Shown here: one piece after another, positions 28,672-62,965 of the stretch | How the letters are laid out: every line of letters begins with the position of its first letter | How positions within the stretch are numbered: position 1 is the stretch's first letter | Assembly: GCF_032854445.1 (NCBI RefSeq) | Contig: NC_088296.1 | Coordinates: 14,638,623 to 14,702,622, forward strand | DNA length: 64,000 nt | DNA from: Liolophura sinensis | Taxonomy: Eukaryota > Mollusca > Polyplacophora > Chitonida > Chitonidae | Direction: 5' to 3' | Notes under the pieces: generated by a model | Database searches by the model: none | Seen by the model: only the letters and a program-made list of their open reading frames with translations | Told to the model about the DNA's origin: nothing | Made by a program: the position numbers and the translations under genes

Positions 28672-28819
28672 CTGTCTTGTGACCTTTTCTTCAGACAAAT
28701 GAGGATGGTCATAACAATGAGGATAATGAGAACGAGTCCTCCAACTCCTCCACCTACACCCAGGATGATCTTTTGTTCCTCAGTAAGAGTCGAGAATACC
28801 GCAGGTTTCACAGGGGGCA
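28672..28819 (-). CDS. Gene 1 transmembrane exon
   Basis: 148-nt exon, phase 1 in and 2 out, donor ACAG/GTGAGA. It completes the Cys-Val junction with the upstream sushi exon, then gives a short stalk (PPVKPAVFSTLTEEQK), a glycine-rich entry GVGGGVGG and a hydrophobic helix (LVLIILIVMTILICL). The stop-transfer residues are KKRSQDR. This is a single-pass type I topology. The exon aligns closely with the transmembrane exon of gene 2 (62800-62965): both have TL..EQ, GG.GG and IIL before a basic end with RS..R. An alternative acceptor upstream (TATGTAG) would leave the wrong phase. Confidence 0.9.
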
Positions 28820-28892
28820 CTAGGTATTCAACAACATCAACAGCACTACATATTATGTAAAATAACATTTGTGAAGCCTAAAACTGAGCGTA

Positions 28893-29542
28893 CACTCAAA
28901 AAATTAATCTGTTGCTGTTCTCAGAAATTCTGTCGCCTGCGTGATGTATTCTGCTATTGCTACAGAGTACACTGTTAAATATAACACACATATACTACTA
29001 ATGCAACATGAAGAATAACAAACGGGCCCAGTTGGCTCCGTTGGTAGAGCATCCGCTTCGGGGTTGGGGTCAATCCATGGTCTGGTCACACCTAAGACTT
29101 TAAAAGAGGAATCTGCAACTTCCTGGTTTGGCGTTCAACATTTAGGGGATGGTGGAACCATTGGTTGGCTCGTATCAGTATAATGGCTCGGTAAAGGCGG
29201 CTTACTTGTTTTCGGTAAGCCGCTCTCCGTGAAGCGGCAGTAGATAAAAGAGGGGTGGAAATCCAGCAACAAGGAGGCATATTACACGTACATGCACTCT
29301 AAGAGCTCCTCCATCGTCATATGACTCGATAACTCGATAACTTAAGTATGACGTTACCACCTAAGCACTGACGTGGCCACCTAAGCACTCACGTTAACAC
29401 CTAAACACTCACTCACTCATTAAACATTAACAGGATTCTATGTTGAATACGACAGAATATGATGCTATAATAACACAATGCACTCTACCACCACTAACAC
29501 AAGAGGCTTTCTGTTAAAACCGGTAGATTAATTTTTCCCGTG
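28893..29542. mobile_element. MITE (family M1) split by a SINE
   Basis: Left end ACTCAAAAAATTAATCTGTT and right end TTTCTGTTAAAACCGGTAGA form diverged terminal inverted repeats, matching the better preserved element at 61924-62150. A SINE family 2 element sits in the middle (29024-29419). No transposase is present. Non-autonomous DNA transposon by structure. Confidence 0.7.
29024..29419 (+). mobile_element. tRNA-derived SINE family 2, near full length
   Basis: Begins GGGCCCAGTTGGCTCCGTTG (A box-like) with GGTAGAGC and a weak B box (GGGTCAATCC). A body with TCACACCTAAGACTTTAAAA follows, and the 3' end carries TCGTCATATGACTCGA, a TATGACGTTA motif and ACTCACTCACTCA. The tail is partly repeated. 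Inserted into the MITE at 28893-29542. Confidence 0.85.
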
Positions 29543-29749
29543 TAATGTATATGGAAAAAAATAAACGATCAACGTTTAGACAATCGTGGATGAAAGAGCA
29601 AACAAATAAATCCTCCAGCATACGCTCGTGTTAATGCACATGGTGTTCTTCTGCGATCCTTATGCGCGCACTTACTTATACGTGCGTGTACTTATACGCG
29701 CATGTATTTTTACGTGCATGTACTTATACGTGCATGTACTTTAAAAACA

Positions 29750-30015
29750 GGGGCCTCCGTGGCTCAGTCGGCTAGCGCGCTAGCGCAGCGTAATGACCCA
29801 GGAGCCTCTCACCAATGCGGTCGATGTGAGTTCAAGTCCAGCTCATGCTGGTTTCCTCTCCGGCCGTAAGTGGGAAGGTCTGCCAGCAACCTGCGGATGG
29901 TCGTGGGTTTCCCCCGGGCTGTGCCCGGTTTCCACCCACCATAATGCTGGCCGCCGTCGTATAAGTGAAATATTCTTGAGTACGGCGCAAAACACCAATC
30001 AAATAAATACATAAA
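29750..30015 (+). mobile_element. tRNA-derived SINE family 1, full length
   Basis: The most complete plus-strand copy. It has a head GGGGCCTCCGTGGCTCAGTC with intact A box, a B box-like GAGTTCAAGTCC, the full body and a tail ACACCAATCAAATAAATAC. The flanks ACTTTAAAAAC (29738) and ACTTTTAAAAC (30015) form a probable target-site duplication. RNA polymerase III promoter boxes are internal, as expected for a tRNA-derived SINE. Confidence 0.93.
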
Positions 30016-30574
30016 CTTTTAAAACTGTCGGCAAGGCTGCGTATAAGCAGACTTGATTCACTGGTAGCTGTTTAAGATGTATTTCACAGCACAATCCGTT
30101 AAGCACCGTGGGGACAAGGTTGTACTCGTCATGTATGTGATTTTTTTTGTTCAGTATAAAATACACTTGAAAATGTACTGAAATATGTGAATTTAGGAAC
30201 TAGTCATTCTGGAATAATAATTGATATGTAGCCTACATCATCGGCACTCGTATTTTGTGCACACTGCTAATGTGGTAAGATTTTAAAAACCCTGGTATTT
30301 TTTAAACCATGAGTTTAATTGTAATTATTGTCATAAAATAGTTTTTAAAGGATGAAACTTTTCACTATATGTGTCTTCTACATGACGTTTTTCAATGTCG
30401 AAACCCGGAAACATAGTATTTAAGAAAACCCGTTACAGATAAAAGCTAACGGATGAGGTACTCCATGGATGAGCTTCATGTGCAAAATGTTTGGATTTAA
30501 TAACAAATTATTGTGAAAAGATTTCAACCTTTGACCATGCTGACCAAACCTATATGTTGCCACCCTTAAGAATA

Positions 30575-30896
30575 CCGGAGCAGGAATGAATGGATCAAGG
30601 GATACCTGGAGATTAACGTCATGCTTTTGTCAGCTATATGGCGACGATGACTCACTAGATTTGTGTATACATACTGTGTCTCCTTGTGGCAAAGTCCATA
30701 GTGCTGCCATAGTGCTGCCGCTACCCGAAGTAACACGCCGAAGACACCAGACATACCACCCCACCCAGTCACATTATGCTGACACCAGGCCAACCAGTCA
30801 TGTTTCCTTACTCTAAACTCTCTGCACTGAACGCCAATCCAGGGAGCAAGAGGTACCATTTTTAATGTCCCTGGGAGACACCCCGGAGCAGGAATG
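30575..30896 (-). mobile_element. SINE family 2 with perfect target-site duplication
   Basis: Minus-strand element (about 30589-30882) with body motifs CATAATGTGACTGGGTGGGG and GGTGTCTTCGGCGTGT. The 14-bp direct repeat CCGGAGCAGGAATG flanks it at 30575-30588 and 30883-30896. The 97-residue ORF across it is not a gene. Lies between the gene 1 sushi and transmembrane exons. Confidence 0.85.
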
Positions 30897-30984
30897 TCTA
30901 CAGCTACATCCGCAACAAGTAAATATAAAATTATTTTTGTTATCAGGCTTCTTTCTAGAGATTCCTTTATTCAGCCAGACTTAC

Positions 30985-31188
30985 CACACTTTGGTTTGGT
31001 TGTAAAGTTCCACTGTTGGTTTTCCTGGCACACGACTGTCTCACTCTCTGCCTGAAGGGTATAATTGTATAGACATCGCAGCTTTACGACTGTGCCCACA
31101 TCTGTTTGACCCTTGGACACTTGGAGTGTAGAGTTGTTTGTCAGAACGTTATTGACCAAGGAATATGGAGGAACGATCGATTCACACT
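30985..31188 (-). CDS. Gene 1 sushi (CCP) domain exon
   Basis: 204-nt symmetric exon, phase 1-1. The acceptor is TGTCTATTTCCTCACAG and the donor is TGTG/GTAAGT. It encodes one complement control protein (sushi) module of 68 residues. The four expected cysteines lie in ECES, LRC, VVC and PKC, with the conserved Trp in QQWNF before the last Cys. Sushi modules are extracellular and bind proteins or glycans. Their exons are typically phase 1-1, as here. Four N-glycosylation sequons are visible (NNS, NST, NYT, NFT). The last Cys joins directly to the stalk in the transmembrane exon, so this is the membrane-proximal domain. More sushi exons probably lie upstream, but I did not find them. Confidence 0.9.
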
Positions 31189-34100
31189 CTGTGAGGAAAT
31201 AGACAAGAGAAACCACTTATCATTGAGCTGTCTTTGACCTTAGTAAAAATTCAAAACTTCGTAGGGTTGCTTATTTTTGATACTATGGAAGGATTTGTTT
31301 TAAACAATGTCGATGAGGTGGTCAAAATTTTAATTTTTTAGGATCTAACAAGAAATTGAAAAATTGTTATTCAAAATTTGACTGAAGAAAGGATCCGCGG
31401 GTAGAATTGGTGTCGGGGTCCGGTTTCAGGAAACTCTACAAGATTGTTTGCCTACACAAAACCGTGTTGCCAAGAAAAATGACAGCTTACTCATGCTATG
31501 TTTATGTTTTGTTTTCTAACGTAAGCAATATACTGAAAAATATAGGGAAGTTCCATGAAACCTGGCTTTTGGGGGAAAAATGGTATGTGAATACTGATTC
31601 AAAACTTCACGTAGAACATGTCTTGCGCCTGTACAACATCATTGAAAAGTGCTGACTGCTTCTATTTGTATGATTCCATCATATATTCTTCCGTTGCATT
31701 TACGTTTTCATGTCATTAAAATGTGAGGACAATACAGATTTTGAGTACGTCTATCACGCTGTCGTCGTGGCTCTGTTTTTAACCTCTGTGCTGTACGTCT
31801 ATCACACTGTCGTCTTTGCTCTGTTTTTACTCTCTGAGCTGTACGTATTTTACTACATTTCTGTACATTCTTAGTTCTTTAGAGATTTGTGACAAACGTC
31901 GATTTGGGAATTGGCCTCGCAATTATTGACATGGAACGTTTATTTTGGTTGATGGATCGTACACGAATGTCTGTTTCGAGACATAGATGTGAAGTGTAAC
32001 TGTTCAACTTCTTAAAAAATGATGAAAAAGGAACAAAAAGAAAAACACAATAATTTGGTGTAACTGCTAGATATGTTGTAGAGCAGGAGCTTACCACAGA
32101 AAGAGTAGAGTTTTGCTGATGGAAGAAAGCACAGTTCCTGTGACAAATCAGCAGCCTATAGTAATTGACAGACGATTTGCCCCACGTGCAACGTTAAGAT
32201 GCAATTATTGTTGAAAGACACGCGGATTTCGACGGATATCAGACAATGAAAATGGGCGTAAGAGAGCCTTCGACCGTTAATTGACCCCAGAAACCGTGAG
32301 AGGTTTGAAATCCAGAAGCCCACTCTGTAAAACTACTTATGGATATGCATGGACTATAATATAATGCTTGTTTATACTATGTGGTATATTGTAAAATATT
32401 AGCTTTGCAGAGAAATTGTTTAATTGCTTGTTAATTGTTTACCGGATAGCTTCGTTGATTTTATAATTTAGTCATTTGTCCAACGTTTACTTTGAGTAAG
32501 GCAAATGTTCTGTTAGGCGTGTAATTTAAGAATAAAGGACGGATTATCTGAATACATGTATGCCTTCCGAGTTTCCCCACAACATTTCACCAGATAAACT
32601 CCGTACGTGCCTCGTGCATTGCAGAGGGAGCAAGGAACTATATCCTCGAGTACGGGGGAAATTTCCTTAAGGTTTATGCAGATTAGGCAATGAATATCAT
32701 CACACATCTTACGCAGTGTCACAGATACAAGTCAGTTTAACTATTTATTTATTTCATTTTAGTCAGTAGTAGGAGTGGAGAAAGCCGCAGTACGAGAGAT
32801 AAACCACTGAATATAGACAAGTTACTTGACCGCTTTCCTAAGACTGCCTTACATCTGCAGACTAGCGTATGAACACCGTAATGGTAAAAGACAAAGAGCC
32901 TTCAACAAAGTCGACAAGGCTCCAGTCTTCAAATTCCCTGCCTAAGACCGAGATTTAAACTCATGTCGTGTGTGCTCCATCGGTTAAAAGGCAAACACCT
33001 TAATGTCCCCTAAGATTTAATTTCAGCGGGTAATGCACAAATGTAAGAGACACAATAAAGTACAGGATATCGTGGAGGATTATGGCTGGCGGTACAAGTT
33101 CTGTTTGTTACTCATATGGGTGTGGGTTTACACATGGCCAGACATTATCATATCATTTACTCTCCAACAGGCACTTAGCAGGAAAGCATAATTTGAATGC
33201 TATCTATTTGGTACATGTATCGCTCGGCTTGCCCCACATAATATACACTAAACACTCAACAATTTCGACCATAGACGTAAGGCATGTTTTGACATATTAC
33301 AGGAAAGTTTTCTGATCATGACATGTATTTTCTTTCCTTAACTTCTCACCAGTTCACGTGTCCCCATATCTGAACAAACCTTTAAAGCAGAAGAAAATTT
33401 TAGTTATCAATCAAATACGATTGAAAAGAGTATACATTTCCTCGCAGGTGCATGCCATAAAAAATTTCTAGTATGTACCTCAAGTTGAAAAATTATAAAT
33501 AAAATCAGCGCTAGAATCCGCTGTGGGCGACTCCATTTTGCTTAAGAACTAGTCCTGATGTCCTTTGTGTTAGGAGGAGAATTGCCGTCGGAAACCGCCG
33601 AAGGGCGGTTCGTACATTTCCGGTAGAACTCTTCTTTGCACAAGGTAGTGAACAGTACAGTTAGCTTTCTGCTTGACGATCGGGAAACCGGAATGTTGGA
33701 CGTTGGTTCCTAGTTTACACAAACAAGTCGGCAGTTTAAACGACTCTCATTGGCTGAGAGGCAACACACTCCCAACGTAAATTACAGGGTGTTAAAGATG
33801 GAGAACGCGATGCACTCGGCGATTATGCCAGCTTTGCCGTTTTCAGGTTTCCGTGTATTTTGAGGAAAACTCGAAAAATTATGCAGCAGGTACCATCAGA
33901 TAGAAAAAAATGTGCTGTTTTCAGCCTGTAGTGCCATATTTTAAAGTTTTCTTCTCCTTTAAGTTTTCAGATCTTGTAACTTGTGAATTTTAATTGCATC
34001 TACATGTAGGTAAAAGAGTGCTTCACCGGTCAAATTTATTGAGGATTGGGCGCAAGCGTGAGCAAAGATGGAAGTCTTGCAAATTATTAAAGGCATACTG

Positions 34101-36190
34101 GAAAAAGTGAAGCACCGCCGTATACAGTGACATACTGTACAACTATTCCAGTATTTTATTTGGCGACATTACACAATGTATGAATTTTAAGGCAAAAGAA
34201 CGAATAATATTATGTGAAGAAAGGGTTTCACCCTACGTTATAATGGATCTACTAGGCACTTTTGTTAAAAGGGAAAGCACTCAATTGTACGAAAGTAATT
34301 ATACGAACTGTAAACATTGCATTTTGAAGAAATCATGTGAGTTGTTGTGTCGTACCCAGAGAGTTCCTTGGCAATATGATATTCCAATGTACTTCAACAC
34401 AAATCACGAATAATGCTTTGATTTTGTTTGATAAAGGCCTTCGAACAGTATTTTATTTTGTTTTGTCTTTTTTGTGAGAAAACGGTCTTAATGCAAATCA
34501 AGAACATCATTTTTGCTAGAATGGCAACACTCTCAAACATGTACAGATTCAAAACACGGCACATCTGTAACCTTAGACAACAGACATAATGATAGAATAA
34601 TCGCTGAAGAGGTACTCATTCAAGGAAAGAAGAAAACAAATACAACTAATCAAGTGGTTTGAAGGAACAAAATTTTCAGAAACCAACATCTGTTGGGAAA
34701 ATGTAGTTCCCAGATTTACATACGGTCTCAGATACATGGGCAACTAATTGTATCAATTGCTGAACGGAAAAAAGCAGTTCTCTCAATGTGATGACGGTTG
34801 TGTTTTAGTTTTAAACCAAAGTAATAAATTTACACGATATTTAGTTCAGGGGACACGTGTCAATTACATGATTATTTGTATGTTAATTTGATTTTTAAGG
34901 CTTTTTTGAAAAAATTGTATATGGCCGTTGTCATGTTCATGGCTGGGGCAAACTAGAGTGCCCAGAGAACCTTTCATCACGCACTTCAAATCCACAAGCG
35001 CCGTCAGTTATTCTTTACGAATTGCACGTTAAAGGGATAGAGAATCGATTCTGATTAGCTAGTGTGAGAGAGCGGCAAATCCAGGCTATGCCTTGTGTAT
35101 GCTGAACATTTAGCATGGAACGTTTATTCAAGCGTTACCAAGGCTGAAAGATTTAACCTAGGATATCCTATCTCCACCTTATCAGCCAAGCATTAACCAA
35201 TGCTGATTATAGCTGCTAGGCGGCCACCTCTTAGTGCTTCTATACCCATTTTTTTTTTTAAGAAAATGTTTAAGCCAAACATGATTCAGACTGGTGTAAG
35301 TACGTATACGTGGGTGTGAGCCGGTGCATGGCAAAAAAGCCTGCACAAAATTTCAACACAATTGCACTATACACTTCCAATCATGATGAGTAAGTGGGCA
35401 TGTATTAGGCTTACATAAAAGGTTGGAATAGATTGGTGTATGGGAGCCGGATACGGCCTTCAAGTCTACGTAACATAATGAACATCACCAATCCTTACCT
35501 TTAACCCTCCGAACACACATACACACCAGGCATACGTTCTCTTTAGGGTAGATAGCTTCGAAAGGCGAGTTTATTGTCCTATGAGGCGAAATTTTGCGGA
35601 TAATGGTTTTATATCACTTCAAAATAAAGTTGCGCATGACAGGTTCTTTTCATTCAAAAACCCCAGTTTTCATGCAGACGCTCTAAACGCTGTTTGTAAA
35701 ATAAGCAGCCCATTCCCTCCTTTATCCTTGCATATGATGTATACTACCGGCTGATTGTTACATGCACATTGCCATCAATGATAAATCATCTGTAAGATGT
35801 TCAAAAATTTGTACTCCGTGATAGATATAATGACTTATTGGAGATCTTTGCACCACAATACTAGTATATACCGACGTGCGCTTCAAGCATAGCATGTAAG
35901 CATCGACGCATGTGCGTTTTATTCGCCATATGGTGCAATTTTCTTTTTGGTATTTTTACCCTCTAATAAATTGTATAAACTTTAGTATACGTCTGCCACA
36001 GTCTGTCAGACAATAGAGGTACATAACCAAGTCCACATTATTACATATTTCTATGTCAAAATGTACCCTCATCGTACGGTATCTCTTCAATCTCTAACCT
36101 ATCCTTGTTTCATTTTCAACGTTTAAACAGTAAATTTGTTACTGATTACCTGTCAGAATCTGTAACTTACCTTATATGTATTGCCTGTAT
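31189..36190. other. No supported gene; probable gene 1 intron or 5' region
   Basis: AT-rich DNA. ORFs at 31407-31655, 31879-32097, 32513-32722, 33082-33315 and 34180-34413 have no domain, splice context or conserved partner. A 48-bp doublet occurs at 31745-31840. The segment 32755-33010 may be an old dispersed repeat. Upstream sushi and signal-peptide exons of gene 1 are expected somewhere above 31188, but I could not identify any. Confidence 0.5.
31745..31840. repeat. 48-bp tandem doublet
   Basis: Two 48-bp units beginning GTACGTCTATCAC at 31745 and 31793, followed by GTACGT at 31841. Confidence 0.85.
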
Positions 36191-36242
36191 ATATAAGGTG
36201 ACGTAATCACAGGATATATGCTGTATATACTATTATACATAC

Positions 36243-36519
36243 TGTTGTATGTTATATACGGTGACTTAACTATAACTGATGTATGTTACATACGGTGACT
36301 TAACTATAACTGGTGTATGTTATATACGGTGACTTAACTATAACTGATGTATATTATATACGGTGACTTAACTATAACTGATGTATGTTATATACGGTGA
36401 CTTAACTATAACTGATGTATGTTATATACGGTGACTTAACTATAACTGATGTATGTTATATACGGTGACTTAACTATAACTGATGCATATTATATACGGT
36501 GACTTAACTATAACTGATG
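36243..36519. repeat. 34-bp minisatellite
   Basis: About eight units of 34 bp, core GTTATATACGGTGACTTAAC. Degenerate units extend to either side (36190 and about 36600). Confidence 0.95.
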
Positions 36520-36599
36520 GAGGCATTCACTTTCCGCATACAGCGGTTTAACAATAAATCCTGTATGTATTTACTCCCTGCATACAGTGACTTAATTAT

Positions 36600-39500
36600 A
36601 AAGTACTCATCATAGGCTGCATTTATTCTTTATACTCAAGCCTTGATATAATTACACGTGGCATGACACATATAACTTACATGATGGATATAATATTTTC
36701 TCCTCCACACAGCCTATTAATATACCGAAATGTTGTTGATCGTTTTATGATTGGCTGAACACAAAACTTACGGCATTTCATATAGAGAAGTGTCAATCCA
36801 CGATATGTTTCATTCGCACACTGTGTAGTTTTCACATGCTCCTAATTGTGCGTTTCATTTTTTTCTAGTATTATAGACTGGTTGCAATGATTCCACTTTA
36901 CCAATGGTTAATTCGAAAGAAAACTGATGCTCTACTGGATTAGACATACAAGCATAACTGCATATCTTACTGCCAGACGCTCATGTTACCTCCTTCAAAG
37001 GAATATTTTGTTCTATATATATATATGCACCTTAGTAATCTTCATTCTTAACACAATATATAAAAGGACCACTGCAGTTCCAAACTTACAGTTATACTTA
37101 CTTTTCGACATAGCAAATGGTAGGGTTAATCGTCCTGCTTGATCTGTTACTTCCAAATATTCGACTTCTATAGGGGCTTAGGTCATCCACGGTTACCATA
37201 TACCCGATACATGTACACTCCTTATTTACACCTTCAGTACGTGTAACGGCTCTCAATGAAAAAAAAAAGGTAGCACCTAACACAAGTTTCAGGCTTTCCT
37301 CTCATCGCAGGCCACCTATAAATAGAAGAAAAAACTCCGCGATTTCTACAACGGACTACTTTTTAAATGAGTCACAGAATGCATTGAACTCCTGTCAGTA
37401 TATGTTTGGAATAGGGTTGTCTTTGTGGAAAGATTAGTCAGCTAGTTCTGCGTGTGCCCTGCACGTGTTTGGCATGTACCTGTTGACGGTTGGTGTTTTT
37501 TCTCGGGCACTCCGCTTTCTCCTACCGAGAAATCTGACTGCCGCTGAAAAAGTGAAAATTTCTGAGGTATGGCATTAGACAACAACCGAATACATAAATA
37601 CATTGTACACAGTGATTTCTTATTTGAGCGTATGGCGACAAGTCTATAATCATGAAAGAAAAGAAAATAGATCTCGCCTAATCTGTAGGGACAGATCAGT
37701 AGCTAAAAATGTATTAACTAAAAAAAGTTTTCATCTCTTTCTTAAATATTCAGAGTGAAATGTATGCTACTGTTGTCTCCCACACAGTGATGATTACGTC
37801 AACCGATCTGTACAATCCGCCACGTGCAGTCTAGTAGCAGCAGGTCAGTCCTGATTCAACATGGATTTACACAAAATCTAACCGCACTGCTGATGTGACT
37901 ATCATGTATGTATTCTTCCGCGCAGACGGCAGAGATTGAGCTCGGGCTCTGTGAGTAGAGACAGCTTTCTGTGGTTGAAGCCAAGCGCGTCAAAGCAGAA
38001 ACCGCCCCTTTGCTTTCTGCTACTACGCGAACCGGTACACATAAGGTAGTGGTTTGCTCAAAAACCGAGCTACACCCGAGGGAGGAGACGGGCTGGGTTG
38101 GGGGATGGAATGGCAGTTTACTGTCACGGGTGACTGCCATCAGTCAACACAAGATTCAATGAAAACCAGGGCTTTATGAAAGGAAGGGAAAAGGCGTGCC
38201 TGAAAGACAGGCATGTCAATGAAACATATAAATATATAAGATATAGCGCATGCGTGTGGACACTAGGCATCAGAATAAAAACTTAAGGTATTAGCTACAC
38301 CTGTATAAATATATATGATTCTTTGTTATTTCAACAGCTTTCCAAATCACTGAATTATTTTCTGTAACCTTTTACGCCTATGTAAATATTGATAAAAGAA
38401 CACACATGCATGTATCGAGTTTTAAAAAAGAACGTTGCGTTTTAGATGGCGGTTTGGGGTATTTATTGAGAGGGAGTTTTAAGTTATTTTTAATTTGAAT
38501 GCAAGTATATAACATAACACACGTCAAAAGATCCCTTATACTTTACATCTATAACACCACGTGACGTCAACTTTTCTCATGCTTCAAGTACAATCAAGCA
38601 ATGATCTCACAGGCACAACATTTTAAATAACTTATAAAGAGTTTACATCCGTGTGGGCTTTTATAGAGACGTTCGCATATGTTAGTAAATTCTCAGGGTG
38701 TTCCACATGCGTACGTGGGCAGGATGTACCCTTGAAAGTAACATGTATTGTTTTGTTTGTGGTACTCGAATTCTATACTACTTTCAGAATCACAATTCCC
38801 ACCATTTATCAGAATTCTACACTAGATATCCTGGACAATTGTTACTTTCAGACATTTACTTTATGAATCATTTGTTTTGCAAAAATATTACCACTGAGCG
38901 GTGTTTTTTTTTTTTAATATTACAAAATTTAAAAAAATATAGAATATTATAGCAATTCTGTGACTTAATAATTACAGAAGTAAACTTACAAAAGCAGATT
39001 GCAGATAAAAAGTAAATGTGATCAGCCTATTTTATGGCCGCAATATCTCTAGATTCAAATTCAGTTTTAGATAAACTTTATATGTTCGATATGCCACATG
39101 CTCTTGGTAAACAATTCCCTGTAGGGTCTTGGGCGCCATATTGGTGATACTTCATCCAAACTGGGCAATGGTTTCCTTTTGCAGTGTTAACATTTTCTTA
39201 ACTGTTAAATACTAATTTGTATTATTCTAGATCAGTTATGTCTAATACATTGATATTAACATAATTACACCTCCACCCCCCACCCCCACCCCGTCTCTCT
39301 CACCCCCTCCACCCGGCTTCTGCTTGAGCCATGGTGCCGGGGTGGTGTGATAAAGATTATACCTGTGAAATTAGAATAGATCCCTAAAAAATGATAACAG
39401 GTCTTGTTTCAATGGCCACGCCTTATCATTCACCAACCGTTTTACTGTCGTATCTACTCTGCTTTACACTCGCCATGCCGCAGTATCTCATGTTCTTCTG

Positions 39501-40900: not shown

Positions 40901-40904
40901 AAGA

Positions 40905-45019: not shown

Positions 45020-45044
45020 CTGCAATTGGGTCCAGATTGCTATT

Positions 45045-47665: not shown

Positions 47666-47707
47666 GACGCCCTATAAACAATCGTTTATGTCATTCTCAT
47701 AAGTCTG

Positions 47708-50865: not shown

Positions 50866-50869
50866 ATGG

Positions 50870-52460
50870 CCACTTTAATAAAAATGAAATACTCGCATCT
50901 CTCACTGTATGTGAATGTGAATATATACGTTGGTGTATTAGATTCACACGTACACCATATGAATGATATAGGACAACACTGTAAGCATTTAACCTGATTT
51001 ACTATGATCCTACGTTGTACAAAACATCCAAGTAGCTCCTTGTGATAACCCTAGCGATTCTAGCATTACTGACTAGGGTGAAAACATTCAATACATACAT
51101 GTCTATTGCGCGGAGAAAACTTTATATCTTTAGAGTTATCGTGGAATACTTTTAACAGGCGTGTACATGTACAGATCTGTGATTACTTCGCCAAGTGACA
51201 CAGGGATGTTCCATTTCATTACAAATCCTCCTCCAGGTGCACCTTGTCCTATAAGTCGTGATAATGCAACGCTTTGTTTTAAATCAACACGTAATAGGCT
51301 TATAAAAGTTTTTGCAAAGGAGCGTTTAAATCAGATTTGAAATTCTAAGTCGAAACCAGCGTTGTGGAATAAACCGAAAACAGCATACACCCGACCTTCC
51401 GCCTACCCCACCCCCACTACGATCCTCAAAGCACTGAACTTTGACGATACACATATACACATTGAAAGCCGACCGCGAAAAAGTTGATTCCGCGAGATAA
51501 TTTAGTCTGCTCAGTATAGCGCTTTTGCGACACGGGCCAACTGTGTGTGCAAAAACAACAACACAAAAAAAATGAGGCCAAACATTGCCACATACATTAG
51601 TCTGTTTATTACATGTAAACTATATAGACAATTTAATAATTTACGGTGCAATTATTTGTAAAGAATCGCATTTACATGTACAGTAAAATGTATAATATTT
51701 CAAAACATTAACACAGCAGGGTTTACACATGTATATCTAGATGAGTAAATATATATAACACTAAGTGATGCACTAGTGTACCATTATAATTGCAACAGCA
51801 TCTAAGATATTGATTTACACAGCATATCATTACACGCTATGGAAACTAACACGTGTACCAACAACAACCTCCGTAATGCGAGATAGCGAGTATGTAACTT
51901 GCCACATACTACAACAATATAGTCGACCAGTAATGCATCAGCAACGCCATAACCAATGCCAGATAAAGAGTTGACATATCTAGACTTTTTCAACACTATC
52001 ACACTTTATGTGAGTATTGTGTTTGTATAAATTACACAAATGAATTTCACATATCTATACATACACGCATTAACAATATTACAATTCATGCAAGATACCA
52101 AGTTTGTGCATACAGAGTATTTTAACCCATCTACGCGTATGTGAGCACCAACAATATCACCTGTTAATGCGAGATACATGTAAATCCACTGGTGACTGAT
52201 TTGTCGTTTAAAAACATTTTCGCCCCATATACATTCGCATGTGCCAAAAACATCACAATTTACCTCTAAAGGCGTGATTTACATTTTAAAGCGACACGTG
52301 TGTCAATGCAACAACAAGATCATCATTATTGTGAGATATGCAGTATGTTTGCGCATAATCCATAATATCACATTTAGCATGGGATACACATACCACACAG
52401 AGGCTTAACACACCTTTGACTATATCCACAAAGTTATTTATAATGTGAAGTGCCGAGTTT
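50870..52460. other. Intronic DNA, nothing recognised
   Basis: AT-rich sequence within the 12-kb intron of gene 2. No repeats with partners elsewhere in the window and no splice-flanked open frame. Confidence 0.5.
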
Positions 52461-52738
52461 GTATGTAAACATTATTTATTTATTTATTTGATTGGTGTTT
52501 TACGCCGTACTCAAGCATATTTCATACGACGGCGGCTAGCATTATGACGGGTGGAAACCGGGCACAGCCGGGGAAAACTCACGACCATCTGCAGGTTGCT
52601 GGCAGATCTTCCCACTTACGGCCGGAGAGGAAGCCAGCATGAGCTGGACTTGAACTCACATCGACCGCATTGGTGAGAGGCTCCTGGGTCATTATGCTGC
52701 GCTAGCGCGCTAACCGACAGAGCCACGTATGTTAACAT
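52461..52738 (-). mobile_element. SINE family 1 with target-site duplication
   Basis: Full-length minus-strand element (about 52473-52726). The flanks GTATGTAAACAT (52461) and GTATGTTAACAT (52727) differ at one base and form a 12-bp target-site duplication. The head, body and TTTA-repeat tail are intact. Confidence 0.93.
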
Positions 52739-55482
52739 CGATAAATGTATAGCTCTGTACAAATCGTACTTACAGTAAATTTTTATGACTGCATATCTGC
52801 ATGTACTGTACAAGTAAACTTGATACATACATATATTTGACAACAGTACCAAGTTACATACACATTCAATAAAATGGAAAATTATGAACATATAATAAAA
52901 GAAGAAATTTTAATGTTATAACCTAATTTATAATTACGCTTGACACTGGGCCTAATTGTGCTGACTGTAAGAGAAATACAGTTTAAGCTGTACACATCTA
53001 TAAATATATCAACAACACTGTTCTACTACAAGCATTTTGTTTTGTATAACCTTTACAAAATAAATTCATAAAATGTTTCCATCACTGGCTCTAAAACACC
53101 ATTTTTTAGCTGACACAAGCGTGCTTAAATTTATCTAGTATGAGAGGCCATTAATGCATAGGTATGAATTGAGATGGCATTGTAAAATATCTAAATCACA
53201 TTTTAACATCGTCATTACGCTTCCCATATACTCATATACTAATGAGCTTTTTATACTTGTAATTAACAAAACTGAACTCTACAAAGTAAACAAACTAAAG
53301 TTATCAACAGTAAAAATGACGTCATTAAACATCCACATTGCACAATGGGCGAATCAAAGTATTGAATAACCCTGGTTACATTGCAATCAAATAGATATAT
53401 TTTGGAGTAAATAAATATGAAGATGATTTACGATGCCATAAATACTGTAAAAAAGACACGTAAACTTGTCATCACATTTTGACGCTGGAATTATGCAAGC
53501 GTAAACTTGATAAATGTTAGTCTAAAATAAGTGTCATGCGTATTTTTTTTGATTGGTGTTTAAAGCGGCAGGTAACAACTTTTCAGCTGTACAACTGTGA
53601 CCATGTTTATGTATGCAGTATAAACCATCGCTCTTCTTCAGATAAATTCTCCTCTTAACGATTTCACGTCACAGCTAACAGAACTAATTTAAGCCTGTGA
53701 ACCTCAAATAATGCAAGTGCTGATAAATTCATTAAGTTAATAAGAATAAGTTAAACAATGTTTAACTCCCCATTCTATTGTAAAAAAAAATCCAAACATC
53801 CAAATAAATGAAAATTTGAATTTAGTGGTAAATGTGATAAGATCCGGACTTTAAGCTTTAAATTTAAAACCTTTGGTTTATAAATAAGAGGACACCACTA
53901 CGTCTCGGGAAAACATCTTGTTAAGACAAAGACAAGCGCCTTTGGTTGATGACTATTTTATATAACACTGTTCACGGGTAGAAGTAAAACAAGAACAACA
54001 CAGGTAGCTAGATCATTCACAAACACAATTTGATGACGTTCTGTTCATTATATGCGATGTCGTTGTATCTCCTCGCCACCTACTTCGATTGTCCAGTATG
54101 GAAGGAAGTCAGAGCAATATGATCTTAAGATTGCCTTGCCAGTGTTATCTGTGTCTGTTGTTGGTGTAATGCGTTTTCGTGCTGTACAACAAAGACGAAA
54201 ATGAAATAAATATGAAGTCAAGGAAATGATTTAAACATATAAGGCATATTAAATGAGAGATGATTAAACAGTATGCATTATGTCGATCCAAAAATCAAAC
54301 AAAATCCTAGGCAAAAAAAAACCCACAAAATATAAGCGCATATTTCATTTTCATAGCATAGATATAAAATGAACAAATATGGGTGGAGATAAAGAGATGA
54401 ATTTAACAGCTAAACATATTAGTAAAATGCAGAGAAATGATGAATTGAGCTTATTTGTTTAATTGCATTCAAAAATCTTTAACTGGTTTTGGGTGAAACA
54501 AAAATGGAGCACCCTGATTAAAAATGCCAACTCCCGTGATGAAAGTTATAAACATATGACCCGAAGCTCCGATGATTACAGGGCAATGAGAAGGTATGGC
54601 GAACCGCGGGTCAAGAAATGGGAATGCGTGATAACGAGAATGGTATAAGCAAAGGAGATGTGTAATATATAACGTCAAGAAGATAAATTCATTAGTTTTC
54701 TATTTAGGATTTAAGCGGATTCTCTGATTTACACTGGTACCACGTGGAGAGCGGAAAACCAGAAGTTGGGGGTGGGGGTAACATAGCGGTTTTCAAATGG
54801 TAATTGCTTTGTGTGATCTAATTAAACTTTTGAAATCTGAAACTTTGAAACCTATCTCCTGTGCACAAAAAGTATCCAAACACTCCAAGAGAAAATAAAT
54901 GGTTCAAAAGTTAAAAGTTGCACATCCGGTTTTTGATAAAAGTAGAACCTCCCCGCACGACCTTCCAAACTGCATATAGATGCCCCTATGTTCTCCGAGT
55001 CGACCTCGATCGTTTAAAACATTGAAAACGGAAGAAAAAACGGTAGAATTTGGTGATCAAACATCAAAAAATCTACTCCACTACGATGGAGACACTGTTG
55101 GCCTTGTCACACTACGACGGTACATTCCTGGCAGGAATTGTGAGGCCTCTCTTTGAGTATAACACAGACCACAAGAGAGTAGTTGTGTAAGACTTGCTAA
55201 TTCAGCCTGACCTACTAAAATAAAACGCCAATGGACGAGGCTTATATCCCTCCAAAAAGCCACAAGAAAAAATTCCATATTTTCACAGAATGTTTCGGGT
55301 TGAGCCTGCAGCGGTAAACCTTAACATTGTCGGTTATGGAAAATTAATGGGGGTCTGTGGCCACGGTAAGCCAGTGTGAAACTTACAAAACGAGTACAAG
55401 AAGCTGGCACAAACATTTGCTGGCATAAAGGCGGCATCTACAGCAAGCAAAGAACAACAAGCTAAAATAATGTTTGCTCTAT
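52739..55482. other. Intronic DNA, little recognised
   Basis: AT-rich sequence. A bare tail of SINE family 1 (GATTGGTGTTTAAAGCGG) sits at about 53541-53566. Short ORFs at 53154-53369, 54463-54648 (with an opposite-strand ORF) and 55081-55278 have no domain or splice support. Confidence 0.5.
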
Positions 55483-55580
55483 GCTCAAAAAAAAGGAATC
55501 TGTTAATTTTAAAAGAAAATATGTTGTTTGAGTGATGTGAGATCATATTCTGCCTTTGCAACAGAATATTCTGTTAAATG

Positions 55581-55673
<93 letters not shown>

Positions 55674-55812
55674 ATTAATTCAACATAAAAATTACTAGAC
55701 TAACAGAATATCATGCTTAATGTGACACAGTATTACGTTAGAATAACAATAACCATTCTAGCATCACTCAAAGAACATACTTTCTGTTAAAATCAACAGA
55801 TCACTTTAAGTG
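55483..55812. mobile_element. MITE (family M1) containing (TA)n
   Basis: Left end GCTCAAAAAAAAGGAATCTG plus TTAATTTTAAAAGAAA and right end TTTCTGTTAAAATCAACAGA are inverted. Inner GAGTGAT and ATCACTC are also paired. A pure (TA)n array of about 87 bp (55585-55671) sits inside. Confidence 0.75.
55585..55671. repeat. (TA)n microsatellite
   Basis: Pure AT/TA run inside a MITE. Confidence 0.97.
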
Positions 55813-56261
55813 TCCAGAGACATGAGGCCTTTCTACTCTCTGCGCGTGGTGTTAAGAAGTGGAGTCAAAAACTAGTCACGACCATAATCAATGGAAGCCA
55901 AGAGAGCGTGATATGATGATATGGTATTTACAAGCATGTACACTGTGTGAGGGCCATAATATACACGTCCATCTTGAAAAAAAGCGCTATTATTTGGTTA
56001 GGATAAGAGTAATGCGGATAAGAAAGACTTTTTAAAGATCTTTATTGTGAGCGTATGAAAAGCAGAAAGCTAAATTACTTTGCAAGCGGCGGTGGGGCAG
56101 GTATAAGGGAAGCGGGGTGAGGGTACTTTTGAAGATTCCTTATTGTGTACATGGGTGTGAATGTGACGAGTAAAGCGTCGTCAATACCTGCAGGTGTGAA
56201 AATATGAAGTCTTGAAAACGCCGAGAATGATTAACGCAAACTTACATGTAAATAAAAGGGT

Positions 56262-56700
56262 CTCTCAAGGAATAAATAATAATAACTAATCTGTTAAATT
56301 GAACAGATAAGCTGTTGTTTAGATGATAGTAGAATATATTGCCTTATGGAACCAGATTGTTACGTTATTGCAGCAGCCTATGAGGTAAAGAATATCGGTC
56401 TGTCAGCAACCTGCGGATGGTCGTGGGTTTCCCCTGGGCTCTGCCCAGTTTCCTCCCACCATAATGCTGGCCGCCGTCGTATAAATGAAATATTCTTGAG
56501 TACGGCGTAAAACACCAATCAAATAAAAAAAATAAATAAATAAAGTATATTACACATATTCTATTAATTCAGCATGCGGAAGTCGACTAACAAGATATAC
56601 TGAATAAGATACCGCATCACTTTATAAGATTAGATATATTCTCTCATCATTCAATTAACAGACTTCCGTTTTGGATTAACATAATGTTTTATTGAGTGTG
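56262..56700. mobile_element. MITE (family M1) split by a SINE
   Basis: Diverged ends CTCAAGGAATAAAT...CTGTTAAATTGAACAG and CAATTAACAG...AATGTTTTATTGAGTG are inverted. A SINE family 1 fragment occupies 56393-56543. Confidence 0.6.
56393..56543 (+). mobile_element. SINE family 1 3' half
   Basis: Plus-strand copy from TCTGTCAGCAACCTGCGG to a tail ending AATAAATAAATAAA. The head is missing. Nested in the MITE at 56262-56700. Confidence 0.9.
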
Positions 56701-57341
56701 TGATTGTCTCCAATGATCCTCTTATTCGTTTGCGGGCTGTGTCACTTCCGCTTAACTGAATTTCCCGTACTGTATCTACTTACTTTGGTCGCCAGTGACT
56801 TGCACTGGATTCCAATTCCGGACCTGATTGAGAGCCATGCCTGGAAATGCGTTAAACCATAGCAATCAATTAGTCTGGGCTGAAGTGTGGATGAGAGGGT
56901 GAAGGGGTGATGTGTGGGTGAGGGGTGAGTGGTTGAGATTGTCGTCTTAATTTGCAAGATTGGTTACAGGTGCTTGTAGAGAAAAAAAAAATTGGTTGAG
57001 TCAAAACCACGATCTACTGGTATTGGGAAAACTGTCGTCATGTGGAGTTAACAAAACCGTTGAAACTTTGTGTAAACGCTTAGATTTCATTCTTCGTTGA
57101 CACACTGCTTGGTCAAGCCTAAGTCCTCAAGACGCCATCACACTGACACATCGGTTGGTTAAATGAAAATAATGCAAGCCTTTTTTCATACCTGCGATGT
57201 TTTGTAAGTTGAATATTCTCATGTTTACGAGTCAGTGCTTGGAGTTCTCAGGTTTATGGCGGTGGAAGAAAACCAGAGAACCCACAACCATCACAATTTT
57301 CCGGCATACATGTACCTACCCATACCTACCTATACCCCACC

Positions 57342-57652
57342 AGAGGTCTCTTACCAATGCGGGCGCTAAGAGTTCAAGCCCAGCTCATGTTGGCTTCCTT
57401 TCCGGTCGTACGTGGGAATGTCTGTCCGCAACCTGCGGATGGTCGTGGGTTACCCCCGGGCTCTGCACGGTTTCCACCCACCATAATGCTTGCCACCGCC
57501 ATATGAATGAAATATTCTTGAGTACGGCATAAAACAATCAATCAAATATATAAATAAATATACGCGACCGGAGAGGTAGCCAGTGTGAGCTGCGCTTCCT
57601 GGGTCATTGTGCTGCGCTGGAACGCTAACCATAAGGCTACAGAGACCACCTA
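57342..57652. mobile_element. Two SINE family 1 pieces in inverted arrangement
   Basis: A plus-strand copy (57342-57557) runs to its tail. It is followed at once by the 5' part of another copy in minus orientation (57562-57652: ACCGGAGAGGTAGCC to AACGCTAACC). The second piece lacks its own body and tail, so this is a composite insertion or a rearrangement. Confidence 0.8.
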
Positions 57653-58157
57653 CAGACTTTCCAAATCTGATCACTGGCGCTTCACCATAACCCTCCTGGT
57701 GATATCCGTTATTTAAGCATATACGTACGTACCTATATGTGAAATAACTAACACATGTACCTTTCATACATCATACAACACTACATTTGAGGAAACTTGT
57801 TCATCCCTTTACAAAAAGCAGATAATGGTTAGGTCGGAGTGTCTACGTCTATCTAAATGGTAACCTAAACAAAATCTACCCATATTATTCAAACCCTGAG
57901 ATGTGCGTGTGGCGACTTGGATACTATGCCCCAAAAAGACTAAAATCAAGGACATAAAGTTATCTACGTGATCTCGATTATCGACTTTCATGGCCACTGC
58001 TCAACTGACCCGCTGCGGGTAGATTTTTAACCATGTCAGATTTTATTGAAAGTATTGTCCTAAAACTCGTCTATGCCTTCTACCAAGGGGCAAATAAGAC
58101 ATACTATAGGCGACACCGGTTTCTGGATCACACCAGTAATGCTTACACAAACATATA

Positions 58158-58262
58158 TTTATTATTTTAATTATGCTTTAAGACATGTTCAAGAATTTTT
58201 CAGTTATACGTTGGTGGCCATTTTTATGGGTAGAAGAATCCGACTTGCTAAGGGCAAATAAC
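58158..58262 (-). mobile_element. Degenerate SINE family 1
   Basis: Weak minus-strand similarity: GTTCAAGAATTTTTCAGTTATACG, then GTGGCCATTTTTATGGG and AAGGGCAAATAACC. Old copy. Confidence 0.5.
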
Positions 58263-58852
58263 CAAAGTTTGGCCGTTTCCCACATATATGCACGCACGAC
58301 ATACATACACACACAATATATGTGTTAGCCGGATAGCTGTTTTAACTGGTGCATCAATGCGCATGGGCAAAACTAGTCATGAGTAGGATAAATAATAGCA
58401 TGCGGTCAGTCATGCCAGAGCTACAAGATTGCATACTTAGACAAAGGCAAATGTTCAGCCCATACAAGTGTAAATTGTATGTAAATTTTTGTCTCATTTC
58501 GGCTTGAAACTATGTTTGAGCCCATTTAAAGTCTTTGTTCTCGCAAATTCTCGCTTAAAATGCACAAAACTTGCTGAAATGTGTGTGACTGCCGAGAGTG
58601 AAAAGCTATAGTTTAGCAGCGTGATCTTGTTTGTCACACACCAAAGAAGTCTCGGTCATGCGCAAGGAAAATAGCTATCTAGCTTATTGGTGAATAACAA
58701 GTAGTCTTAAAAGACATGGTAAGCGCCACAAAAAGTCAGCACTGTTGTTAAAAGTCGGAACCAACACTTTCCTGGAAATTTATCGATTTTTTGATTGATT
58801 AATTAATATAACTGAGTATTACTTAACACCATACACAAGCATTTTCACTTAC

Positions 58853-59161
58853 CCGGATAAATCATATCTGTCATAACCTCTGTGGATATTAGAAGAACCA
58901 CGATTATCTGGGTATCCTGGATAACCTTGCGCAAGTTCAAGAGGGTTGCTAAAGTAACGGTGCGGACTGTAGTTGCCAGGGTAACGACCTCTGCTACGCG
59001 AGTCGTCAAGGTAACGGTCAAGGCTCCTGGAGCCGTCAGGGTAAATTGTGGATTTGTCATCGTATCGTCCTTGACCTAAATACGACGGCTCAGGAGACCC
59101 GCTGCTATGTTCCTCCACGTACTGAAGAGTTCTCTGAGCTCGGGTAACGGCTTCCGGTGAT
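58853..59161 (-). CDS. Gene 2 cytoplasmic exon, RY-rich
   Basis: 309-nt exon, acceptor TTACTATCTTCAG and donor TCCGG/GTAAGT, phase 2-2, 103 residues. Opens with a probable helix (SPEAVTRAQRTLQYVEE). A disordered Arg-Tyr-Gly-Ser stretch follows, in which RY recurs within short units such as DRYLDDSRSRGRYPGNYSPH. This unit-like structure is visible in the DNA as repeated CGTTAC. The helix resembles LPVTNAVRMFEEY in the 21286-21540 exon of gene 1. Cytoplasmic by position. Function unknown. RY/G-rich disordered segments often self-associate or bind nucleic acid, but that is only an analogy here. Confidence 0.85.
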
Positions 59162-60143: not shown

Positions 60144-60233
60144 CTTGGTCCTCTTTTGGCGAAACGTTTGCCATGAGCTCTGGTGTCTTCGCCAACAAAA
60201 TAGTCAGGGCGGGGATATTCCAGTGACCGGAAC
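60144..60233 (-). CDS. Gene 2 cytoplasmic exon, short basic
   Basis: 90-nt exon, acceptor ATTTCCTTCAG and donor CCAAG/GTAATT, phase 2-2, about 30 residues: FRSLEYPRPDYFVGEDTR followed by AHGKRFAKRGP. It has tyrosine sites at EYPRP and DYFVG and a basic C-terminal half. Fits in frame between its neighbours. No domain recognised. Confidence 0.8.
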
Positions 60234-60743: not shown

Positions 60744-60968
60744 CTGTCCTTTTCGTAAGCCAGCTGATCCATTCGCTCCCTGGCGATGACGTCAAGAACA
60801 TCGTCTCGTGATGTGAGGTCACGCTCGTCAGGATCCAGGCGAAATGATGGGTTGTTATACACGTCATATCCTGAAGTCGCAGTTGGTAATGCCATCGAAT
60901 GGTATGTTTGTCGGGTGTGTTCTGGGTAATAGTCATGTGACGTAAACGAAGGGTAGGCCGAGTACCCT
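60744..60968 (-). CDS. Gene 2 cytoplasmic exon with NPSF motif
   Basis: 225-nt exon, acceptor CTGATCACCCACAG and donor GACAG/GTTGGT, phase 2-2, 75 residues. The first half is Tyr/His-rich (GYSAYPSFTSHDYYPEH). The middle has GYDVYNNPSFRLD, an NPxF variant of the PTB-binding motif. The second half is a charged probable helix ending ARERMDQLAYEKDR, which aligns with SRVRMLEEAYE at the end of the 21286-21540 exon of gene 1. A chance ORF continues into the intron to 60563. Confidence 0.87.
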
Positions 60969-61545
60969 CTGTGGGTGATCAGGGAGAATGGAATGGAAGA
61001 ACATTAAGTGGTTTTTCTTGGGAGATTAGAAACAAAATTAAATGTAGGTCACTGTGAACATAATCAGCTGTGTATATTCACAGCTTTATCTGTTTGGAAA
61101 CAACTTTAGGTGGTAAGAAACAAAAATAGGTGGTAGGGAAGCTAGCAAAATAAGGCTATTAGAAACATATTTATGTGGTTGAATTTATTTCTAGAAACAA
61201 TAAAAAGGTCGCTATGAGCAAAATTAAGTCCCGGGAACATTAATCTTTGTGCAACAGGAAACCGTTTTGTGGTTAAAGAGGGCAAACTGCTACTTAAAGA
61301 TCTACAATAGATTTGCATGAAGGTATTTTTTTATCTATTATTAGAACTTAAAAGTAAAGAAGTTCAAGCAAATGTGCCTGAAAATACATTTTGAACGCTA
61401 TTCCCTACAAGCCGTGAAGGTAGGATAATTCGCGAAAAGTAGGCGAATTAAAGTTCGAGGCAGGATCAATTTCGTCAAGTAGGCGAAATTAAGTTTGAGA
61501 CATATGAATTGAGACAAACAGGAGAAAAAAAAGAAAACAAATTAC

Positions 61546-61632
61546 CTCACAGCACGGGTGTCCAGTGGATGCACGGTAGTTAGTGACGTCACATCCGTTC
61601 CGGCCGGACGTACAACTGTTTTGTCCGCTCGC
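61546..61632 (-). CDS. Gene 2 first cytoplasmic exon
   Basis: 87-nt exon with a strong acceptor (TATTTTCTGTTTCCCAG) and donor GTGAG/GTAATT, phase 2-2. It encodes 29 residues including RADKTVVRPAGTDVTSL and HPLDTRAV. It occupies the position of the 78-nt exon of gene 1 (27439-27516). No motif recognised. Juxtamembrane linker by position. Confidence 0.82.
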
Positions 61633-61923
61633 CTGGGAAACAGAAAATAGCCAAGATTATGTTAGCTGTGTTTAAGTTTAAATCAAAATACCTTATAGAT
61701 GTAGAAAAATGTAGAAATGAATGAATGTAAACAACCAGCCAAAATAGGTTTATTTTTTGTATCTTTTTTTTCCTTTTCCTCCTGAGTAGTAATTTCAATA
61801 AAAAATTACAAACGCACACGTAGAACAAGGTGGCCCTGAAAAAATGCTTGTAAATTAAACAGGGTGGACAACTAATGATTTATTGAAATGTGAATCTACA
61901 AGGTAAAAATTACCAAACAACAA

Positions 61924-62150
61924 ACTCAAAAAATTAATATGTTAATTTTAACAGAAAGCCTGTTGTCCGAGTGATTGTATTCTACTATTGCAACAAATAA
62001 ACTCAGCATAAAGGTTCTTTTAGACTAACACATTAATATGTTCAGTATGACAAAATACTGTGTTATACATGTAGTATCAGAATACATCCTTGCATCACTC
62101 AGACAAGACTCAGACTTTTCTGTTAAAATTAACAGGTTAATGTTTTGAGT
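61924..62150. mobile_element. MITE (family M1), best preserved copy
   Basis: A 227-bp element with 34-bp terminal inverted repeats, left ACTCAAAAAATTAATATGTT and right AACAGGTTAATGTTTTGAGT. They differ at three positions, and an inner GAGTGAT/ATCACTC pair is also present. No coding capacity. Lies between the first cytoplasmic and transmembrane exons of gene 2. Superfamily not determined because a clear target-site duplication is not visible. Confidence 0.82.
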
Positions 62151-62799
62151 GCATGTGTATAATTTAGCGCAAAATAAATGTATACATGTAAGCCGATGTA
62201 TATTGACAGGTATTTGCCTTTTTCTTACTTCTAACAAATACTTTACGTGTTTCCAAATGTTGTTATATTAGCACAGGTGAAAAGCTAGGTTTATGTTTAT
62301 TGCTTTCGTCAAGTCGCTATAGAAAGTTAAAGCAAAAACTTTGAAAGATAAAATCCAGTTCAACTGAACAAACAATCGCAAAAAAAATCTTAGTTTTGGG
62401 CCCAGTTATGTTGTTAAATGTTCTCACGGCAAGAGATCATTGAAACAAATATCCATGGTGTAATATTCGTGATTTTAAAAAGAGAAAACTTTCAAAACAT
62501 TTGAACTTTTAAAGAAAACACAACTTTTCATCTTATTGTGGATTTTAGCACGATTTTTTCCTGGGGAGTAATAGCAGACTTAACACAGTATTAATACTTG
62601 TAATAATTAATATTATTAAACGTGTATATAGCTTTTGTTGCACAGAGAGGTCCGAATTAGACTCCACTTGACGTTTGGTAACAAATCTAAGAATATCATT
62701 TTTTAAAGTTTGAATGAAACATGTTCGATTTCAATTAAAATTTTCCTTTACTTTTAATTTTAAAGAACCACTTTTCATTTAAAAGACTTGTAATCTCAC

Positions 62800-62965
62800 C
62801 TTGTGCGTGAACGATTTTGCATAATACAAATACAGACGATGAGGGCAACAAGGATTATGAGTATAAATCCTCCCACTCCTCCAGTAATGCCGACAATGGT
62901 TACCTGCTCCTGCGAGAGGGTCGGGACAGGGGAACTTCGGGGAGGGGTCGTGGCGGCAGATACCC
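62800..62965 (-). CDS. Gene 2 transmembrane exon
   Basis: 166-nt exon, acceptor CTTGTTCCCAG, donor ACAAG/GTGAGA, phase 1 in and 2 out, exactly as in gene 1. It encodes a Thr/Pro/Ser stalk (TTPPRSSPVPTLSQEQ), a glycine-rich entry (GITGGVGG), a hydrophobic helix of about 22 residues (FILIILVALIVCICIM) and a basic anchor QNRSRTR. Type I single-pass topology with the long tail inside. The helix and flanks align closely with gene 1 28672-28819, establishing paralogy. The upstream phase-1 exon, expected to encode a sushi domain, is not found before the window ends. Confidence 0.9.

Follow-up and report, generated by a model that had tools for sequence, protein, structure and literature searches.

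A tandem pair of predicted sushi-domain receptor genes with NPx[YF]-bearing tails in the chiton Liolophura sinensis

Two sister genes on the minus strand

We analysed 64,000 bases of the Liolophura sinensis genome (NC_088296.1:14,638,623-14,702,622; here called the window, with positions above 64000 continuing its numbering into the flank). Two neighbouring minus-strand genes, gene 1 and gene 2, lie there, and their predicted products are sister type I membrane receptors with a sushi domain, a transmembrane (TM) segment and a Tyr-rich intracellular tail. Membrane proteins with sushi domains have roles at synapses and in the control of complement in better-studied animals, as described in excerpts of PMC7396870 and PMC9083331.

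The TM exons (28672-28819 in gene 1 and 62800-62965 in gene 2, both minus strand) run from phase 1 to phase 2 and end at a GTGAGA donor; the acceptor of the gene 1 exon is weak (-0.7). They encode 22 identical residues out of 51. Their alignment score of 106 was reached by none of 2000 shuffles in which three segments were kept apart (mean 38.4, maximum 79). An earlier note on this DNA had called the exon shared and alignable, and both parts of that description hold.

Gene 1 carries its sushi (CCP) exon at 30985-31188 (minus strand, phase 1-1, Cys1-Cys2 spacing 37), where it scored 30.8 bits against PF00084, the Pfam Sushi family (E 4e-7; curated cut-off 20.7 bits); the note had placed the domain near the membrane in the same way. 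At the thresholds used, this was the only phase 1-1 candidate with at least four Cys on the minus strand of 28830-45040. AlphaFold gave the exon by itself a mean pLDDT of 64.5, and the model was put to no further use.

The sushi domain of gene 2 had been read as unproven, a reading overturned by the flank sequence, which holds a sushi exon at 64260-64469 in extended coordinates (minus strand, phase 1-1, donor GTGAGA), 260-469 bases past the window end. It was found through its similarity to the gene 1 sushi exon (E 8e-4), has a Cys1-Cys2 distance of 38 and scores a borderline 20.9 bits against PF00084. A scan for phase 1-1 candidates with at least four Cys gave one for gene 2, this exon. The single TM segment stands after the ectodomain and is followed by basic residues.

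We also searched the organism's own assembly (609,464,459 bases in 632 contigs), scoring only the best candidates in each search. Up to E 10, the gene 1 TM exon had 11 matches, namely itself, gene 2 (2.9e-6) and nine others with E values of 0.15 or more, the gene 2 TM exon thus being its only significant match besides itself. The combined sushi and TM exons of gene 2 gave 13 matches, among them itself twice, the gene 1 TM exon (1.3e-5) and the gene 1 sushi exon (0.29). The other nine comprised one at 0.0165 (low-complexity frames), one at 0.10 and seven weaker; eight of the nine came with loci, five were inspected and two proved to be sushi-TM genes.

Codon, splice and motif tests were made with small hand-made models trained on these same exons, with leave-one-out training for the codon scores, which were compared with background open frames. 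For seven of the ten core exons of genes 1 and 2, fewer than 3% of background frames scored as high. The other three, both TM exons and the sushi exon of gene 1, were not set apart from background by codon use (40 of 303, 56 of 432 and 51 of 224 frames) and rest on homology instead. Throughout both genes, sushi exons are of phase 1-1, TM exons of phase 1-2 and internal tail exons of phase 2-2. The pair itself is real, with corrections to its earlier description that are given below.

Cytoplasmic exons

The tail of gene 1 begins with an exon at 26469-26591 that encodes the motif IGNPNY (minus strand, phase 2-2; acceptor 5.5, donor 2.5; codon score reached by 0 of 641 background frames), followed by a Tyr/Arg/Asp-rich exon at 21286-21540 (minus strand, phase 2-2; acceptor 3.9, donor 3.5; 0 of 224). 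A possible further exon at 19532-19639 on the same strand has two overlapping readings with nearly equal codon scores: one internal in phase 2-2, the other terminal, with a stop, from 19632 in another frame.

Four minus-strand exons of phase 2-2 with good splice sites make up the secure tail of gene 2, 236 residues with 9.3% Tyr. These are a 28-residue exon at 61546-61632 (acceptor 6.4, donor 3.9; 6 of 1293 background frames), the exon at 60744-60968 with the motif YNNPSF (0 of 223), the exon at 60144-60233 (acceptor 3.4, donor 4.3; 10 of 1199) and a Tyr/Arg/Gly-rich exon at 58853-59161 with a strong GTAAGT donor (0 of 223). When all phase 2-2 candidates on the minus strand of the window were ranked by the self-trained models, the top four were 59161, 21540, 60968 and 26591.

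The earlier note had given gene 2 a tail of about 585 residues without a known domain. No Pfam family passed its cut-off in it, but about 347 of these residues may not belong to gene 2 because the exon that would join them has no usable in-frame acceptor. They are encoded by two minus-strand stretches. One, at 46375-46656, is coding-like and holds FENPIY (4 of 224 background frames; donor -1.7), and its joining to gene 2 is doubtful; the other, at 45045-45807, is a terminal exon with a stop (6 of 224) and an AATAAA at 45019. The open frame at 45045-45815 has 256 codons; when the window was block-shuffled 60 times, no frame was longer than 207. The block 45045-46656 is probably coding, and the chances that it is part of gene 2 are about even.

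Evenly balanced, too, and compatible with every other explanation considered here, is that the block is a separate intracellular gene or an alternative-promoter product starting at the ATG at 46641. Gene 2 would then end earlier, perhaps via an acceptor at 46664 that gives a tail ending in TEEVI. The in-frame acceptors of 46375-46656 score -5.3 and -9.4, against 1.7 to 6.9 for 10 of 11 other exons (the gene 1 TM exon, at -0.7, being the eleventh; the gene 3 TM exon is left out of this count). The only good AG, at 46664, scores 1.6, and reading on from it meets a stop six codons later. In addition, the ATG at 46641 has A at -3, G at +4 and an in-frame TGA upstream. On the other hand, the strong donor of the 58853 exon must be spliced to something, 46000-58850 yielded no convincing terminal exon, and the block carries the same type of motif (FENPIY) as the tails. 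A tail resembling that of a short interspersed element (SINE) ends about 40 bases upstream. The stretch 45045-45807 had no second copy in the genome search. In the PDB, 45048-45806 had no match up to E 1 and 46376-46655 had three, the best at E 0.19.

Part of the 12-kb gap between gene 2 exons 58853 and 46656 is filled by a minisatellite at 47550-50400, whose units are 34 bases long and for which about 75 register positions were reported. A strong skew of C over G on the plus strand covers 48001-52000.

Further genes on the same contig

On this contig (28.4 Mb) we found four further genes whose TM exons have these phases, three of them with a sushi exon over the Pfam cut-off. With them, genes 1 and 2 appear to form a small, rapidly diverging group of about six. 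The note had thought the family perhaps expanded in this lineage; the species' own genome, the one animal genome searched, shows six genes of this build on a single contig, two of them (genes 3 and 4) counted by architecture and position only. The remaining two loci are farther away on the contig.

Gene 3 has a TM exon at 82976-83141 (minus strand, phase 1-2) and a tail exon at 82118-82480 (minus strand), the tail being entered in phase 2. Gene 4, on the plus strand, has a sushi exon at 123036-123188 (phase 1-1, 25.1 bits in Pfam, Cys1-Cys2 distance 21), a TM exon at 123653-123824 (phase 1-2) and tail exons at 124446-124514 and 124859-124975, again entered in phase 2. A sushi profile search over 164 kb returned one convincing exon each for genes 1, 2 and 4. 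In the scan for phase 1-1 candidates with at least four Cys, gene 3 had none and gene 4 had four, of which its sushi exon ranked first. The TM similarity of genes 3 and 4 to genes 1 and 2 was reached in 2 to 18 of 1000 shuffles, and their resemblance to each other in 0 of 1000. Genes 3 and 4 are predicted members by architecture and position only. A genome search with the sushi, TM and first tail exons of gene 4 returned itself three times, then a match at E 0.43.

The two distant loci, at 5.119 and 1.209 Mb of the contig, were found with the sushi and TM exons of gene 2 (E 0.10 and 0.37). Each has a phase 1-1 sushi exon (25.6 bits in Pfam at 5.1 Mb, 31.0 bits at 1.2 Mb), a phase 1-2 TM exon and a tail that starts in phase 2. 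The sequence read at either locus covers about 6.6 kb, and further sushi exons are possible there. The order of sushi phase 1-1, TM phase 1-2 and tail phase 2 was thus read in genes 1, 2 and 4 and at both distant loci. The sushi exons of all five have the cysteine pattern and the Trp on a phase 1-1 exon, with four Cys in genes 1, 2 and 4 and at 1.2 Mb and six at 5.1 Mb.

Against the gene 2 sushi exon, the 5.1- and 1.2-Mb exons scored 79 and 80 (69 against each other), and the best of seven other sushi exons scored 53. These seven controls were drawn from eight exons at other genome loci, L006 being left out. One control, L004, nevertheless reached 79 with the 1.2-Mb exon and 61 with that of gene 1, for which the 5.1-Mb exon reached 54. 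In view of these L004 scores, the group is supported but not cleanly separated by sushi similarity.

The arrangement of these genes bears on two other explanations. The sushi-TM-tail blocks of genes 1-3 could be alternative 3' cassettes within a single larger gene whose N-terminus they share, since they follow one another head to tail on the minus strand and scans 5' of genes 1 and 2 gave no convincing signal-peptide exon. That signal-peptide scan was crude, however, gene 4 has the opposite orientation, and the genes at 1.2 and 5.1 Mb are 9 to 13 Mb away. Nor was a shared upstream exon apparent among the 41 matches listed in an open-frame comparison from which many-match rows were filtered. 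We consider the cassette arrangement very improbable.

Immune recognition receptors like those of the snail PTC/GRC clusters, in which variation among clustered, divergent single-pass proteins matters for parasites, are an improbable model, if less so than the cassettes. Neighbouring single-pass genes with strongly diverged sequence speak for such a model, and clusters of this general kind are described in excerpts of PMC7494358. The likeness of our genes to the snail PTC2/GRC TM1 clusters extends that far; the PTC2 genes have no known domain besides the TM segment in the same excerpts, whereas the chiton genes have sushi domains.

Sushi exons are numerous in this genome. At least 150 exceed the Pfam cut-off (a lower bound, with 150 of 239 candidates scored), and many are clustered, for example at C7:37.41-37.43 Mb, C13:7.49-7.92 Mb and C6:70.94-70.96 Mb, among others.

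The tails and the NPx[YF] motif

No Pfam family exceeded its cut-off in the tails of genes 1, 2, 3 and 4 (both exons of the last) or of the 1.2- and 5.1-Mb genes. In the genome searches, the gene 1 tail matched only itself, twice, and the gene 2 tail (555 residues) itself five times before a match at E 1.53. Between tails, 2 of 21 pairs stood at or below 12 of 400 shuffles: gene 2 with gene 3 (SFxSHDYxPxxT, 10 of 400) and gene 2 with the 5.1-Mb gene (6 of 400). Both likenesses are weak given the number of tests.

What the tails have in common is their composition and the motif NPx[YF], which in other proteins serves as a docking site for adaptors of endocytosis and signalling. The first four tails (genes 1 to 4) contain 4.2 to 10.0% Tyr. 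Five of the six genes carry the motif, as IGNPNY (gene 1), YNNPSF (gene 2), YANPGF (gene 4), SEINPMY (5.1 Mb) and TEQNPLF (1.2 Mb), in addition to the second gene 2 motif, FENPIY, in the doubtful exon 46375-46656. The first four tails hold four NPx[YF] against 0.37 expected, a number reached in 0 of 2000 composition shuffles. With the doubtful exons removed, the figures were three against 0.24 (12 of 5000 shuffles), and for motifs with an aliphatic or aromatic residue at position -2 from the Asn, three against 0.067 (0 of 5000).

The 1.2- and 5.1-Mb tails came to light afterwards through sushi and TM similarity, and both were NPx[YF]-positive in only 34 of 10000 shuffles; their exons were chosen by eye, by phase and position, from open frames of at least 30 residues, with the motif tested after, which leaves room for bias. 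As a further, loose control made up mostly of non-coding DNA, the non-exon open frames of the region contained ten NPx[YF] in 103263 residues, from which 0.08 would be expected in the 840 secure tail residues that hold five.

The earlier note had suggested a signalling or scaffold receptor. The enrichment of NPx[YF] points to docking of adaptors with a phosphotyrosine-binding (PTB) domain or to endocytic docking. In the first four tails, YxxPhi was not enriched (7 seen, 11.6 expected), and neither was a motif like the immunoreceptor tyrosine-based inhibitory motif (ITIM; 1 seen, 2.0 expected). Y.N. occurred six times against 2.7 expected (109 of 2000 shuffles). PPxY, the NEDD4-type motif, occurred once in these four tails against 0.44 expected, and the 5.1-Mb tail also holds PPPPPY. 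By motif, then, a PTB-adaptor cargo receptor is the predicted class, the motif being above chance in five of six genes, gene 3 excepted.

Other features of the window

Positions 1-19240, just downstream of the last clear gene 1 exon, hold segmental duplications in tandem, offset by about 3.5-3.7, 7.8 and 11.9 kb; for example, 7234-11459 matches 15000-19237 at 95.8% identity. An interspersed repeat of about 260 bases, presumably of a molluscan SINE type, has copies at 9630-9895, 17410-17672, 29750-30015, 43086-43337 and 52472-52727, in both orientations and with 87-93% identity in the pairs reported. Rfam and tRNA scans of the window gave no matches. A Pfam match to D8C_UMOD (E 0.046) in a 42-residue frame near 38.7 kb was dropped, as no splice donor was seen after the frame.

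Interpretation

On balance, we favour the explanation that these genes encode sushi receptors and that NPx[YF] links them to endocytosis or to signalling by adaptors. Each would have its sushi domain close to the membrane, one TM segment after a Gly-Gly motif and an intracellular tail without a known domain. The sushi module would bind an extracellular partner, and the Asn-Pro-x-Tyr/Phe site in the tail would dock a PTB-domain adaptor, thereby coupling partner binding to endocytosis or adaptor-based signalling. Phosphorylation of other tail tyrosines may add further partners. Surface location, adaptor binding, endocytosis or signalling, and any ligand are thus predicted by analogy from sequence motifs.

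Several observations weigh against this explanation. Three of the five secure motifs (YNNPSF, YANPGF and TEQNPLF) end in Phe and therefore cannot be phosphorylated there. Dab and Numb are examples of proteins whose PTB domains accept NPxF; the PTB paper we consulted contains no mention of it (0 occurrences). When the first four tails were split by the last residue, the excess became two against 0.24 for NPxY (114 of 5000 shuffles) and two against 0.12 for NPxF (32 of 5000). Neither of the two later tails (1.2 and 5.1 Mb) has a motif with a hydrophobic residue at position -2 from the Asn, and the baseline for NPx[YF] consists of composition shuffles and open frames, not of its natural frequency in other receptor tails. 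Gene 3 has no NPx[YF] in its tail exon and no sushi exon in the scans of its region. The gene 3 tail was judged on one exon and the gene 4 tail on two, and later exons may exist.

Homology is a further point. The cytoplasmic exons of genes 1 and 2 could not be aligned above shuffles: among 42 exon pairs, some of them alternative readings, only the TM pair passed (at or below 25 of 500 shuffles), and we rejected the claim that these exons are homologous. Six other GG-type TM segments of the genome, themselves the best genome matches of gene 1, score as well against genes 1 and 2 as genes 3 and 4 do; membership of the latter by TM similarity alone was rejected on this ground. Finally, crude scans found no signal-peptide exon for genes 1 and 2. 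The earlier description of a tandem of type I sushi receptors with Tyr-rich tails lacking a known domain is supported, although these scans gave no signal peptide.

These genes could instead encode ordinary surface or complement-regulator-like sushi proteins in which the ectodomain does the work and the tail is a disordered anchor, NPx[YF] reflecting composition and luck or generic endocytic signals. The divergence of the gene 1 and gene 2 tails beyond detection, together with the lack of any Pfam family in them, would fit such proteins. So would the PDB search, in which complement receptor type 2 (CR2) and decay-accelerating factor (CD55) matched the gene 1 sushi exon best, though only when whole sequences were scored. 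In this phmmer search, CR2 came first with a whole-sequence E of 1.2e-5, which is a sum over weak stretches; no stretch of CR2 or CD55 passes alone. CR2, with its many sushi domains, was matched in seven stretches, whereas gene 1 offers one domain with a longer first loop. Against this explanation, NPx[YF] exceeds the composition shuffles both in and out of sample as well as the open-frame background, and the phase pattern and the Tyr content of the first four tails are broadly kept. We regard it as unlikely, though a more serious candidate than the snail-type immune receptors.

Among described proteins, the SEZ6 family (SEZ6, SEZ6L and SEZ6L2) is similar in consisting of CCP membrane proteins with an NPxY in the SEZ6 tail. 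According to excerpts of PMC7396870, SEZ6 is a CCP/sushi membrane protein with three CUB and five CCP domains and an NPxY in its cytoplasmic domain that is lost on removal of the last 39 residues. The chiton genes differ in having one sushi exon per gene in the scanned regions and longer, multi-exon tails. The set of three CUB and five CCP domains was not seen, CUB having been thinly checked (Pfam scans covered 7 of the 67 frames upstream of gene 1). The Tyr form of the motif occurs in gene 1 (NPNY), at 5.1 Mb (NPMY) and in the doubtful gene 2 exon (NPIY), and is a shared motif, not proof of descent. A second likeness, drawn from description only, is to SUSD2, SUSD3, SUSD4 and SUSD6, which combine one or more CCP domains with a TM segment. 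In excerpts of PMC9083331, all six SUSD proteins have one or more CCP domains, all but SUSD1 have a TM segment, and SUSD4 is linked to NEDD4-subfamily ubiquitin ligases. No matching invertebrate family with sushi domains and NPx[YF] tails was found in the open-access literature by title or start of abstract.

More tentatively, the group may be a chromosomal receptor family that keeps an elongated sushi domain and the TM segment but quickly reshapes the rest of the tail around its NPx[YF] docking site, so that a single type of ectodomain is coupled to interchangeable adaptor hubs; we consider this possible, though short of probable. The combination of sushi domains with NPx[YF] tails would offer a testable link from complement-type recognition to endocytic or adaptor signalling, and these genes suggest that receptor tails can change beyond recognition while the docking motif stays.

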